From positions 1 through 64,000 of the forward strand of contig CAMDNW010000007.1 in assembly GCA_945903275.1 (NCBI GenBank): a stretch of 64,000 nucleotides of DNA. The letters run 5' to 3'. This stretch comes from Thermoflexus hugenholtzii JAD2 (GTDB lineage Bacteria; Chloroflexota; Dehalococcoidia; UBA2979). The translations under genes were made by a program, and so were the position numbers. Below are positions 9,404 to 50,132 of this stretch, in pieces (position 1 is the stretch's first letter; each line of letters begins with the position of its first letter). The notes beneath the pieces were generated by a model that saw nothing but the letters and a program-made list of their open reading frames with translations, searched no databases and was not told the DNA's origin.

Positions 9404-9428
9404 CCAAAGGGGGTTGCACCCCCTTTGG
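9404..9428. repeat. REP-like perfect hairpin ccaaaggggg ttgca cccccttttgg-type in a non-coding G/C-run rich spacer
   Basis: ccaaagggggttgcaccccctttgg read directly; a second hairpin (cttccct cct agggaag) just upstream. Confidence 0.5.
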
Positions 9429-41293: not shown

Positions 41294-42169
41294 TCAGACC
41301 GCCTCGATCTCCAGAGAGATGTCGAGGGCGGGTGCAGAGTGAGTGAGGGCGCCGACGGAGATAAGGTGGACGCCGGTGGCGGCGACCGCGCGGATGGTGT
41401 CGAGGGTGATGCCGCCGGAAGCTTCGAACAGGACGGGCTTACCGAGATGCGTCTCGACGACGACGTGCATCTGGGCGGGGGTCATGTTGTCGAGGAGCAC
41501 GACTTCGGCGCCGGCCTCGACGGCCTGGGCGGCCATCGCCGCGTCAGTGACCTCGATCTCCACGCGCAGCAGGTGGGATGCGCCGCGCCGGGCCTGCGCG
41601 ATCACCTCGGCGATAGTCGCGCCGCGGCGCTGGGCGGCGGCGATGTGGTTGTCCTTGATCAGCACACCATCCTCGAGGGTGTTGCGGTGGTTCTTGCCGC
41701 CGCCGACGCGGACGGCGTAGCGCTCCAATTCGCGCAGGCCAGGGGTGGTCTTGCGGGTGTCGGTGACCTGCGCCGCACCACCCTCGGCCGCGCGCTGGGT
41801 CATACGACGGGTCATGGTGGCGATGCCGGACATGCGCTGCATGAGGTTGAGGGCCACGCGCTCGCTCGACAGGATCGCGGCGAGCGGGCCTTCGATCTCG
41901 GCGGCGACCTGACCGGGTTCCAGCACCGCGCCGTCGCCCACGATCACGTCGAGCACGATGTCGCCCGAGACCTGCGCGAAGACCTCCCGGGCCGCGTCCA
42001 TACCGCAGACGACGCCGCCCGACTTGAACAGGAACGTGCCACGTCCCTCCTGCCCCGGCGGCACGAGGGCGCGCGTGGTCACGTCATGGAACGCGCGGTC
42101 CTCCTCGAGGGCCTGCGCAACGATGCGCGTCACTTCCTCGGGATCGGGGGTCAGGATGTAGCCGAACAT
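41294..42169 (-). CDS. nadC: Nicotinate-nucleotide pyrophosphorylase
   Basis: LNLMQRMSGIATMTRRM...DTRKTTPGLRELERYAVRVGGGKNHRNTLEDGVLIKDNHI. Confidence 0.96.
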   Translation of the reverse strand: MFGYILTPDPEEVTRIVAQALEEDRAFHDVTTRALVPPGQEGRGTFLFKSGGVVCGMDAAREVFAQVSGDIVLDVIVGDGAVLEPGQVAAEIEGPLAAILSSERVALNLMQRMSGIATMTRRMTQRAAEGGAAQVTDTRKTTPGLRELERYAVRVGGGKNHRNTLEDGVLIKDNHIAAAQRRGATIAEVIAQARRGASHLLRVEIEVTDAAMAAQAVEAGAEVVLLDNMTPAQMHVVVETHLGKPVLFEASGGITLDTIRAVAATGVHLISVGALTHSAPALDISLEIEAV

Positions 42170-42195: not shown

Positions 42196-42447
42196 CTAGG
42201 ACTTCGCAGGCTTCGACTTGCCAGCGCTGTTGAGGGCGATCGCCCAGCGAACGAGCGCCTTGAAGGCGGAAGCGTTCACTATTTCGCCTTCATGGGTGTC
42301 AATCGCGCGGCGTGCGTTTCCATCGAGACTTGAGTTGAAGAGATCGGCCGGATCCTTCAGAGACGCGCCCTTGTGGAAGGTCAGTTTACCCAAGAGCAGG
42401 CCTTCTGCGCCCATCAACCGCTGCAATACACAAGATGCTTGCGCCAC
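42196..42447 (-). pseudogene. DUF1801-like C-terminal fragment lacking its 5' half
   Basis: LTFHKGASLKDPADLFNSSLDGNARRAIDTHEGEIVNASAFKALVRWAIALNS. Confidence 0.55.
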
Positions 42448-43967
42448 GCCTCGCGGGGCTCGGGGAAGTCGGTGCGGTAGTGGGCGCCTCGGGACTCCTC
42501 GCGGGCGAGGGCGGCGTGGGCGGCGAGGCGAGCGCAGACGAGCAGCGAGCGCAGTTCGTGGCCGGCGCGATCGGTGGGGTTGTCGAACGTCGCCTGCTCG
42601 AAGGCTGCTTGCCAGCGCGCGAGCGTCGCGACGGCCATCGCGAGGTGTTCGCCGTCACGCTCGATGCCGGCGTGATCCCACATGAGGTTGCGAACATCGG
42701 CGGCGGTGGGGGCGGGGATGTCGTCGTAGACCTTGGGAAGCGGGCGCGCGGTGGGGGTGGGCGGGATCGCGCCGGGGGAGCCGGCGAGTAGCCGCTGCAC
42801 GGCGCGCTTGCCGAAGATCATCGTTTCGAGCAGTGAGTTGCTGGCGAGGCGGTTCGCGCCGTGGACGCCGGTGCAGGCGACCTCGCCAATGGCGAATAAG
42901 CCTCGGACGGTAGTCTCGCCCCAGGTGTTGGTGCGCACGCCGCCCATCGTGTAGTGCGCGGCGGGCGAGACGGGGATGCGGTCGCAGCTGATGTTGATGC
43001 CCGCTTCGAGGCAAGTCTTGTAGATCTGCGGGAAGCGCGCGGTCAGCCACGCCTCGTCACGCGCGGTGATATCGAGGAGCACGTGGTCGCTGCCGGTCTC
43101 GACCATCTCGCGCTGCGCGGCGCGGGCGACGATGTCGCGCGGGGCGAGTTCGGCGCGCGCGTCGTACTTCGGCATGAAGCGCTCGCCTCGGGTGTTGTAG
43201 AGCAGCGCGCCTTCGCCACGAACGGCCTCGGAGATCAGGAAGACGGGCACCTCGGGGAGGCGGAGCGCGGTGGGGTGGAACTGTGTGAACTCGAGGTCCA
43301 TCACCTCCGCGCCACAGCGGTAGGCGAGCGCAATGCCGTCGCCGGTCGCGACCAGGGGGTTGGTGGTATAGCGGTACATCTGGCCCGCGCCGCCGGTGGC
43401 GAGGATCACGGCGGGCACCTCGTAACTGAGGCGGCGGTTGTTGAGCCAGTCGAAGACATCGAGGCCCACGACACGGTTGTCGTGCACGCGCACATCGTCG
43501 GCGAGGGCGTGCTCGACCACCGTGACGCCCTCGCGCTGCGCGAGGCCGGCGAGCGACAGTTCGATCTCGAGGCCGGTCGCGTCGCCGCCGGCATGCAGGA
43601 TGCGCGATGCGGAGTGCGCGGCCTCGCGGCCGAGGGAGACCTCGCCGCCAGTGGAGTCGAACTCGACGCCGTAGCGCACGAGGTCGGCGATGCGGTCGGC
43701 GGCCTCGTCGGTAAGTATGTGCGCGGCTTCCTCGTCGACGAGGCCGGCGCCAGCGTCCATGGTGTCCTGCCAGTGGGCTGCGGCGGAGTCGTCGGGGCCG
43801 ACGGCGGCGGCGATGCCGCCCTGCGCGTAGCGGGTGTTCGCCTCGTCGATCGAGCCTTTGGTGACGACGAGGACGCGCTGGCCGTGCTCGTGCGCCTGGA
43901 GAGCGGCGTAGAGGCCGGCGATACCGGAGCCGACGACGACGACGTCGTATTGAGTGGTAGATGTCAT
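42414..43967 (-). CDS. nadB: L-aspartate oxidase
   Basis: YDVVVVGSGIAGLYAALQAHEHGQRVLVVTKGSIDEANTRYAQGGIAAAVGPDDSAAAHWQDTMDAGAGL. Confidence 0.96.
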   Translation of the reverse strand: MTSTTQYDVVVVGSGIAGLYAALQAHEHGQRVLVVTKGSIDEANTRYAQGGIAAAVGPDDSAAAHWQDTMDAGAGLVDEEAAHILTDEAADRIADLVRYGVEFDSTGGEVSLGREAAHSASRILHAGGDATGLEIELSLAGLAQREGVTVVEHALADDVRVHDNRVVGLDVFDWLNNRRLSYEVPAVILATGGAGQMYRYTTNPLVATGDGIALAYRCGAEVMDLEFTQFHPTALRLPEVPVFLISEAVRGEGALLYNTRGERFMPKYDARAELAPRDIVARAAQREMVETGSDHVLLDITARDEAWLTARFPQIYKTCLEAGINISCDRIPVSPAAHYTMGGVRTNTWGETTVRGLFAIGEVACTGVHGANRLASNSLLETMIFGKRAVQRLLAGSPGAIPPTPTARPLPKVYDDIPAPTAADVRNLMWDHAGIERDGEHLAMAVATLARWQAAFEQATFDNPTDRAGHELRSLLVCARLAAHAALAREESRGAHYRTDFPEPREAWRKHLVYCSG

Positions 43968-44172
43968 TGAGGAGGTGCACCTCGGAACGGCAACGGGACA
44001 TCAGCAGGAATGCGGTATTCGCTGTGAGGTACAGAGTTGAGTGCTAGAGGGGGGTCGGCCCAACTCCCCTTAGGTGAACTAGCCCTTACTTTTCGGAACG
44101 TCTGCTGCTGCGCGACTAGCAATACGCGTGGCGCTGACAGCGCGACCATCCCGAGGTGTGTGCGCTGTGCTG

Positions 44173-44836
44173 TCACGGCAACACCGCCTCGACCAGTTCG
44201 CCGACGGCCCAGACGTAGCCGTCGGGGTGGATGGTCATTGCCTCGCGCCAGCCGTGGCCGCGAGTCGCGACGTCCTTGAAGAGGGCGTTCTGCGTGCGGG
44301 CGCGGGCGGCGACCGCGTCGAGGCCGAGGGGCGCCTTCGCCAGACGGCCACTCGAGGCTCAGCGAGCCGCCAGTGGGCAGTGCGTGCCACCGCCTTGCCA
44401 TCTCGTCACATGCCGGCATGATCGCGTCGAGTTCAGCCGGCGTGACGTTCGCAGCGGCTGCAATGTTACGTGCGTACTCGGAGCCGGGCGCTACGTGACC
44501 CGCATGACTCTGCCACGCCGCGAAGACAGCAGCGGAGAGTACTTCCGAACGATCCCTCTCTGCACCGGAGGTAGCCAGACCCGCACGCTTCCCGGCCTCG
44601 CACCGATCAAGTGGCCGCGCGAGCGGACGGAACGTACCTGCATCCCCGCCGGCTGCGAGGTCGCCGTAGATGCCAGTACGCAGGCCCCAGTAACGCTCGA
44701 CGAGGAAGTGAACGAGGTCATGCGGGAGGTGCGCGTCGAAGCCCGGCGCCGGTTCTACCACCACGTCGACGGCTCGTTCGCGCTCCGCAACGACACGATA
44801 GCGGCGATCACCGGTGCGTGTGAACGTGATTCGCAT
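44173..44836 (-). pseudogene. Conserved hypothetical protein interrupted by a single-base frameshift near 44344
   Basis: MRITFTRTGDRRYRVVAERE...LPTGGSLSLEWP / (1-nt shift) LAKAPLGLDAVAARARTQNALFKDVATRGHGWREAMTIHPDGYVWAVGELVEAVLP*. Confidence 0.65.
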
Positions 44837-44864: not shown

Positions 44865-46066
44865 TTACTTCAGCGCCAGCATACGTTCGAGGGCGACTTT
44901 GGCGTGCTGCTTGGTTTCAGCGGGCACCTCGATGCGGTTGACGACTTCGCCGGCGACGAGCGACTCCATGACCCACGCGAGGTAGGCGGGGTGGACGCGG
45001 TACATCGTGCTGCACGGGCAGACGACCGGGTCGAGGCAGAAGACCGTCTTGTCGGGGTTCTCCTTGGCGAGCCGGGAGACGAGGTTGATCTCGGTGCCGA
45101 TACCGATGACCGAGCCGGCGGGGGCCTCGGCGACGTACTTCGCGATGAAGGCGGTGGAGCCGTTGGCATCGGCGGCCTGCACCACGTCGTAGCGGCACTC
45201 GGGATGCACGACGATCTTCACGCAGGGGAAGCGCTCACGGGCCGCCTCGATCTGCGTGAGCGAGAAGCGCTGGTGCACGGAGCAGTGGCCCTGCCAGAGG
45301 ATGACGCGCGAGCGGTCGAGCGCCTCCGGCGTGAGTCCGCCGAGGCGGCCGGACGGGCCGCGCCAGTTCCACAGCGCCATCTCCTCGATGGGGATGCCCA
45401 TGGCGTGGCCGGTGTTACGGCCCAAGTGCTGATCCGGGAAGAAGAAGACGCGCTTGCCGCGCTCAAAGGCCCATTCGAGCACCTTCTCGGCGTTGGACGA
45501 GGTGCAGACCACACCGCCGTTCTCGCCGCAGAACGCCTTCAGCGAGGCGGCCGAGTTCATGTAGGTGACGGGGATGATGTCTTCGGTACCGCCGAAGTGC
45601 TCGCCGAGTTCGCGCCATGCGGCGCGCACATCGGGGTCCGAGGCCATGTCAGCCATCGAGCAGCCGGCCTCCATGTTCGGCAGGATCACCTTCTGGTGCG
45701 GCGCAGCGAGGATATCGGCGGCTTCCGCCATGAAGTGCACGCCGCAGAAGACGATGTACTCCGACTCCGGCCGCTCGGCGGCGTACTTCGCGAGCGCGAA
45801 CGAGTCGCCGCGCTCATCTGCAAACGCGATGATGTCCTCGCGCTGGTAGTGGTGGCCAAGGATGACGACGCGGCTGCCGAGGGTGACGCGGGCCGCGCGG
45901 ATGCGCGCCGTGAGTTCGTCAGCGCCGAGTGCCCAGTAGGCATCGGGGATGGTCTTCTGCCAAGAGCCGAAGGCGACCTCCTCGGACAGCGGGATGGTGG
46001 CGATGCCAGTGTCGGTCTCGCACTGAAGCTGAGGGAGCAGGGCGAATTCGGGTGTTGCAGTGGTCA
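44865..46066 (-). CDS. nadA: Quinolinate synthase
   Basis: RVVILGHHYQREDIIAFADERGDSFALAKYAAERPESEYIVFCGVHFMAEAADIL...CSTMYRVHPAYLAWVME. Confidence 0.96.
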
Positions 46067-46106
46067 TGGGTCGCGTCTTTCGGGGTGAGCGCCTGAGGCC
46101 TCTGAA

Positions 46107-46127
46107 TTTGCGTACTCCGTACGCAAA
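46107..46127. promoter_or_regulatory. Perfect 9-3-9 palindrome 41 bp upstream of nadA, candidate operator
   Basis: tttgcgtac tcc gtacgcaaa. Confidence 0.65.
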
Positions 46128-46227
46128 CAAGGTTGTGTAGAGGATACGCGAAGTGGCAGCGGGGGGTCAATTCGGGGGGGCGTTCGGGCCACGAACTGTT
46201 CAGGGTGATCTTACTAACAAGAGTCCC

Positions 46228-46650
46228 ATGGTCAGTCCGCCGAGGCACTGGCTTGAGTTTCGCCTTCTTGGCGCCGACCTGTCGGACGGTGTAGACGTGC
46301 GTGCGCTAACAAAGCTCATGACGGATCTATCCATAGCCCTACGGGTAATCGCGGATGAACACCTCGGACTAGGCGAGCGGCGGGGTCCAATGACAGTCGA
46401 GGAGCGAGTACTTGCAGGTGTACGGCACCGGGCAGGGGGTCGCGTTCGGCGAGGCGGGCGGGATGATCTGGAACTGCCATTCGATCGGGCGGATGACGCA
46501 GGACGAGACGACCTCAGCACGGTACTCGCTGACGTGCTAGGCACCGACGAAGGGGCCGCTGGCGCGGCTCAACGGCGTCCTGGTGCTGGGGGAGCAGGAG
46601 TCGGACGCGCACAGGACAACGTGCGCACCACGTTGTGGGAGTGGAAGTGA
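46228..46650 (+). pseudogene. Mosaic gene debris: N-terminal fragment of one ORF joined to decayed C-terminus of another
   Basis: WLEFRLLGADLSDGVDVRALTKLMTDLSIALRV... then, in another frame, EYLQVYGTGQGVAFGEAGGMIWNCHSIGRMTQDETTSARYSLTC*APTKGPLARLNGVLVLGEQESD / AQDNVRTTLWEWK*. Confidence 0.5.
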
Positions 46651-49493: not shown

Positions 49494-50132
49494 CTAGAGG
49501 AAGACCGGCTCCCGGCTGGTGAAGCGGTACAGGAGCGCCGGGCGGTGGGGGCCATCGCGGCGGGCTTCACCAGTGGCCTCGATGACCTCGGTTTGGAGCA
49601 TGCGCTTGCGGAAGTTGCGGCGGTCAAGGAGGTGGCCCTCGATGGCCTCGTAGGCAGATTGCAGTTCACGCAGCGTGAACTGCTCGGGCAGAAGGCTGTA
49701 GGCGATGTTGGTGTACTCGAGTTTGGCGCGAACGCGGGCGACGGCCTGCGCGATCACCTCGTTGTTGCGGAAGGCGAGCGCCGGGAGGGCGTCGACGCGA
49801 TGCCAGGCAGGCGGCCACTCCTCAGAGATGCGCAGCCGCACGAGTTCCTCGTCGATCAACGCGAAGTACGCGACGGCGAGGCTGGGTTGCGTGGGGTCGA
49901 GGTTGGACGAGGTGAACAGTTGCTCCAGATAGAGGTCGCGCGCGCCGGTCTCCTCGACGAGTTTCGCCTCAGCGGCCTCCTCGAGGCCCGTGGAGCCGTC
50001 CCAGCGTCCGCCGGGCAGCGCCCACAGGCCCTCCTCGGGCGGCGCGCTGCGGTGGATGAGCAGCACCTGCAATGCGTCGTCGATGACCGCGAAGATCACG
50101 ACGATAGTGGCGATTACGGGGGCCTGCTGCAC
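49494..50132 (-). CDS. NUDIX domain protein with C-terminal wHTH-like region (NrtR-like)
   Basis: IDDALQVLLIHRSAPPEEGLWALPGGRWDGSTGLEEAAEAKLVEETGA...FTLRELQSAYEAIEGHLLDRRNFRKRML. Confidence 0.85.
   Translation of the reverse strand: MQQAPVIATIVVIFAVIDDALQVLLIHRSAPPEEGLWALPGGRWDGSTGLEEAAEAKLVEETGARDLYLEQLFTSSNLDPTQPSLAVAYFALIDEELVRLRISEEWPPAWHRVDALPALAFRNNEVIAQAVARVRAKLEYTNIAYSLLPEQFTLRELQSAYEAIEGHLLDRRNFRKRMLQTEVIEATGEARRDGPHRPALLYRFTSREPVFL

Follow-up and report, generated by a model that had tools for sequence, protein, structure and literature searches.

Genes of the nadA Locus

Pfam and NCBIfam profile matches assigned three NAD genes and one candidate regulator, all on the minus strand, within the window (the whole stretch of 64,000 nucleotides that was analyzed). 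The quinolinate synthase gene nadA (44865–46067; PF02445, 3e-96; TIGR00550 above cut-off), whose ATG is at 46067, is the presumed target gene. It is accompanied by two presumably coregulated genes, nadB for L-aspartate oxidase (42414–43967; TIGR00551 above cut-off) and nadC for quinolinate phosphoribosyltransferase (41294–42169; TIGR00078 above cut-off). Each of the three matched its own family, and the first-pass annotation had correctly placed them on one strand. A 290-amino acid open reading frame (ORF) on the same strand (43964–44836) lies between nadA and nadB, and therefore these two genes are not directly adjacent. The genome is a Chloroflexota assembly, probably of the Dehalococcoidia: the closest named neighbors of nadA were Chloroflexi MAGs, one of which is labelled Dehalococcoides.

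The fourth gene, nrtR (49494–50132), encodes a protein with a Nudix-like domain (PF00293, NUDIX, 1.1e-11) and an NrtR winged helix (PF21906, NrtR_WHD, 1.1e-24), and is proposed here to encode the repressor that binds the two operators described below. An NrtR-like NUDIX regulator had been claimed about 4 kb away from the palindrome upstream of nadA, and both the domains and the actual distance (3.4–4.0 kb) agree with this claim. Divergent from nadA and adjoining the operators is an ORF of 140 amino acids (46228–46650, plus strand), for which we found no Pfam match and no relatives in the nadA/nrtR neighborhoods of other genomes of the family.

The Palindrome Upstream of nadA

The sequence designated O1 (46107–46127, minus strand), proposed as the main site for NrtR in the nadA promoter, reads TTTGCGTAC-TCC-GTACGCAAA and is a perfect 9-3-9 palindrome, with coordinates and sequence exactly as first described. 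Its distance from nadA had been given as 41 bp to a start at 46066; there are in fact 39 bases between O1 and the ATG, whose first base is 46067 (minus strand). At up to three mismatches the O1 sequence has a single match in the window, and none was found in 100 shuffles.

Perfect 9-3-9 palindromes are nevertheless more frequent in the 64-kb window than expected: four were detected (at 9406, 46107, 49662, and 53473) versus about 0.65 under a first-order Markov model. Palindromicity was thus dropped as evidence in itself, and the case for O1 rests on its context and conservation. One of the other three palindromes, CAGTTCACGCAGCGTGAACTG (49662–49682), lies within the coding sequence of nrtR.

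A Second Copy Upstream of nadE

A scan of the genome for a second copy near NAD genes was the check set beforehand. Across the 1.75-Mb genome, the exact O1 pattern occurs once. The next-best site, GTTGCGTAT-TAT-ATACGCAAA (C8:40094-40114), is nearly palindromic and precedes the ATG of nadE by 17 bp; nadE encodes glutamine-dependent NAD synthetase (715 bits vs. a cut-off of 479). On the opposite side, the site is flanked by a cytochrome oxidase assembly gene of the ctaG type.

Further targets in this genome were sought at two to three mismatches, and this search was abandoned, the pattern giving 22 matches and the reversed control pattern 26. One match, at C1:101585, lies inside an ORF beside a gatB-like gene and was set aside. 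The region preceding nrtR contained nothing close to the motif.

Promoter Architecture

A promoter was predicted for nadA on the minus strand, comprising the −35 hexamer TTGACC (46165–46170), an 18-bp spacer, and the −10 hexamer TATCCT (46141–46146). Both the −10 hexamer and its distance from O1 are conserved at 20/20 nadA loci of the family for which sufficient upstream sequence was available. More generally, the pattern TTGA(C/T)N-17/18-TANNNT precedes the site in all 20 nadA regions and in 25 of the 27 nadE regions that were long enough to judge. The site begins 13–14 bp after the −10 hexamer at nadA and mostly 13 bp after it at nadE (range 11–17, one outlier). Transcription typically starts about 7 bp after a −10 hexamer, and hence O1 would span roughly +8 to +28 at nadA.

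A degenerate second copy, O2 (TTCGCGTATCCTCTACACAAC; 46132–46152, minus strand), has two mismatches to the family consensus. Lying 25 bp upstream from O1 and overlapping the −10 hexamer, it has the minus-strand sequence TTCGCGTAT-CCT-CTACACAAC. Most family nadA loci have such a weaker copy 24–26 bp upstream of O1, likewise overlapping the −10 hexamer. The tandem sites of BtAraR in Bacteroides are 3 bp apart, which corresponds to a 24-bp pitch, the same as the tandem spacing at nadA (PMC4666351). The positions of these operators would fit repression by occlusion.

Distribution of the Motif in the Family and the Class

Of 44 family genomes, 40 contain the pattern TTNGYGTAYNNNRTACRCNAA at no more than one mismatch; the reversed control pattern gave few matches. 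Upstream of nadA, the site is present at 35/35 family loci that have upstream DNA, a count that leaves out L021, where the locus stops at the contig edge. Upstream of nadE it is present at 31/38 family loci. It is absent there in two sister species (G001 and G002) and in G003, G004, G015, and G029; in G021, whose gene start was unmatched, it was not seen. These absences indicate that nadE is a less stable target. In many family genomes, nrtR is located close to nadA.

To analyze the whole class, we counted NrtR as present at E ≤ 1e-25. The exact motif occurs in 42 of 246 class genomes, and 41 of these 42 have NrtR (Fisher P-value = 4e-18); outside the family, NrtR was detected in 19 of 20 genomes with the motif and in 55 of 201 others (P-value = 2e-9), although these P-values are too small because related genomes are not independent observations. 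The exact sites in other families are situated before nadA, nadB, or nadE, and several of these families have a separate site for nadB. The one exception (G118:C11:35235) is not flanked by any NAD gene; the nadA gene of the same genome carries a different site, and the match was taken as chance.

For 80 additional class genomes outside the family, we searched the DNA upstream of nadA with the generalized pattern TTNGYGT-N7-ACRCNAA, allowing up to two mismatches. The site was found in 57/57 NrtR-positive genomes and in 0/23 NrtR-negative ones (P-value = 1.5e-20, again too small given the relatedness of the genomes). In the 23 NrtR-negative genomes, the best matches before nadA were at the shuffled background (3–5 mismatches). 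This split is complete and involves many families, and thus the site follows the regulator and not merely the nadA gene. Two results of sequence comparison, the copy before nadE in the studied genome and the joint occurrence across the class of NrtR and a motif preceding nadA, nadB, or nadE, support the earlier suggestion that the palindrome may act as an operator of NAD genes.

The NrtR Protein and Its Predicted Specificity

The best PDB match of the NrtR protein encoded in the window was AraR (5BS6, E-value 4.9e-32), followed by the Nudix-family protein 3GZ5 (E-value 3.5e-23), which we take to be the NrtR of S. oneidensis. These sequence matches settle the fold family of the protein. It also has the architecture of the NrtR family, with an N-terminal Nudix-like domain and a C-terminal NrtR winged helix that both score above their gathering thresholds. 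The Nudix signature GX5EX7REUXEEXGU is impaired: the E, R, and E of EX7RE are replaced by T, A, and K, and the glutamate of RE is absent in 68/68 aligned sequences. Known noncatalytic NrtR regulators likewise have a degenerate Nudix signature (PMC4666351).

Against the NCBIfam equivalog NF050029 (ADPR-responsive repressor), the protein scored 142.5 bits, below the cut-off of 400. Judged by this score it is a relative of the equivalog and not a member at its threshold, and so a response to ADP-ribose is not implied. The genome encodes no other NrtR_WHD protein. NiaR (3H domain, PF02829) is absent from the genome by a search in which the Bacillus subtilis and Thermotoga maritima controls were positive.

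In the AraR–DNA complex, residues K179, R180, N181, and K184 contact GTGT-N7-ACAC. Residues D178/K179/R180/N181/R183/K184 of AraR align with D170/R171/R172/N173/R175/K176 of NrtR. When NrtRs from outside the family were compared with their nadA sites, column 176, out of 212 NrtR columns, best distinguished A from C at motif base 8. Over all genomes, sites whose two halves have identical bases at this position gave 36 AA-Lys, 17 CC-Arg, 3 AA-Arg, and 0 CC-Lys combinations, and both states were observed within one family (f32). The NrtR tree shows 8 changes of motif state and 10 of residue 176. The link is represented by three supported independent pairs, too few for significance; nearly every random pairing agreed with the link, and none ran counter to it. 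The link lends support, albeit not decisive, to NrtR as the protein that would bind the site.

It is conceivable that these observations reflect something more general, namely an NrtR regulon of Chloroflexota that extends through the whole class and uses a standard repression module (a single operator just after the start at nadE, and a tandem pair at nadA whose upstream member covers the −10 hexamer). Its operator specificity would have shifted between lineages through K/R176 versus A/C at base 8, a natural protein–DNA specificity code for the NrtR family. We regard this generalization as evenly balanced between right and wrong. Such paired variation of a residue and an operator base would offer a simple handle on changes of DNA specificity in NrtR-family repressors, whose boxes vary strongly between groups.

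Proposed Regulation of NAD Genes

The best explanation, which we consider very probable, is that O1 is the operator of the NrtR-type repressor encoded at 49494–50132, which would repress nadABC and nadE and be released by an NAD-derived signal. At nadA, an NrtR dimer would bind O1, about +8 to +28 relative to the transcription start, and also the weaker tandem site O2, which covers the −10 hexamer and the start site. Bound NrtR would block RNA polymerase and, if nadA, nadB, and nadC are cotranscribed, the downstream genes nadB and nadC would be repressed together with nadA. At nadE, NrtR would bind a single O1-type site that is likewise placed after the promoter.

NAD turnover would then yield an NAD-derived metabolite, and its binding to the Nudix domain, which is catalytically degenerate, would cause the repressor to be released. 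This effector is probably ADP-ribose. Its identity is the weakest step of the explanation because NrtR scores below the NF050029 cut-off and another member of the family responds to NAD. The latter is NdnR of Corynebacterium glutamicum, an NrtR-family regulator likened here by regulator and not by box, which is said to respond to NAD (PMC4666351), and thus ADP-ribose cannot be assumed as the effector.

Alternatively, a different transcription factor might control the NAD genes through the palindrome, NrtR being present for some other reason. Members of the NrtR family can indeed control non-NAD genes, as AraR does (PMC4666351). We nevertheless regard this possibility as unlikely, considering the complete co-occurrence of site and NrtR outside the family (57/57 vs. 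0/23), the position of nrtR near nadA in many family genomes, the variation of motif base 8 with a residue of the NrtR recognition helix, and the identical spacing of the AraR operator. Moreover, the genome offers neither a NiaR domain nor a second NrtR_WHD protein.

It is clearly less probable still that the palindrome forms an RNA hairpin in the nadA leader, serving as an attenuator, as part of a riboswitch, or in occlusion of the ribosome-binding site. Being downstream of the predicted promoter, the site would be transcribed, and its nine pairs and 3-base loop could form a hairpin. However, there was no Rfam match at E ≤ 1 in 45900–46400 and no terminator pattern, and the sequence itself is conserved as well as the pairing. 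At asymmetric nadA sites, read on the mRNA strand, there are nine C.A mismatches versus three U.G wobbles. The presence of the site, furthermore, tracks NrtR. A functionless palindrome, for which the three other perfect 9-3-9 palindromes in the window might be cited, has a negligible probability, since the site keeps a constant distance to a conserved promoter within the family and occurs class-wide before NAD genes.

Comparison with Known Systems

The NrtR repressor proposed for O1 belongs to a known kind of system. Shared with NrtR regulons are the Nudix-like domain and NrtR winged helix, the degenerate Nudix signature, palindromic operators, and nadABC or other NAD genes as targets; a difference is that no autoregulatory site was seen here. 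The operators of NrtR regulons can have a GT-N7-AC core, which is also present in these sites as GYGT-N7-ACRC. On the other hand, the operator TTNGYGTAY-N3-RTACRCNAA differs from both the Mycobacterium NrtR box, GTTTTCGA-N7-TCGAAAAC, and the Streptococcus NrtR box, ATA-N-TTTA-N3-TAAAA-N2-ATA (PMC6800001). The Mycobacterium box is without the GT-N7-AC core, so this core is not universal, and NrtR boxes are reported to vary between bacterial groups (PMC4666351; PMC5343134). The first-pass annotation had regarded the sequence as an unfamiliar NrtR box, which is true with respect to the Mycobacterium and Streptococcus boxes but not with respect to its GT-N7-AC spacing, which is that of the AraR operator within the NrtR superfamily.

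BtAraR of Bacteroides (PDB 5BS6 and related entries) recognizes GTGT-N7-ACAC, whose spacing is the same as here; it controls arabinose genes and senses L-arabinose, whereas nearly all sites described here are located before NAD genes (PMC4666351). NadQ (COG4111) of Proteobacteria shares a homologous winged helix, the control of nadABC, and a palindromic operator, but has a different effector domain and a different consensus, ttATRCTCannntGAGYATaa (PMC5343134).

A literature search for NrtR in this class retrieved no description. The comparison covered the NrtR boxes of Mycobacterium and Streptococcus and the operators of AraR and NadQ, and some related box may have been listed earlier, for example by Rodionov et al. 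2008 or in the RegPrecise Chloroflexi collection. What appears to be new is a lineage-specific NrtR regulon, in its sequence, layout, and gene set. A bacterial class that is large and mostly uncultured would thereby gain an NAD-responsive regulon (nadABC and nadE), whose operators are located precisely enough to be tested directly.

Additional Sites in Related Genomes

Further exact copies were noted in three other genomes. In G220 (L283–L285), three copies are located before nadB, nadE, and nadA, and no nrtR was detected at E ≤ 1e-25, possibly because the assembly is incomplete (about 90% complete). In G006, a copy (L181 3845–3865; G006:C13:7344-7364) lies about 24 bp upstream of an ORF resembling the large chain of glutamate synthase (N-terminus), and a long NadE was not found in this genome; the copy could be an extra NrtR target or a chance match. 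Finally, one relative has an extra copy between nadA and nadB (L212 2474–2494; G014:C61:9473-9493), which is possibly a separate nadB operator.
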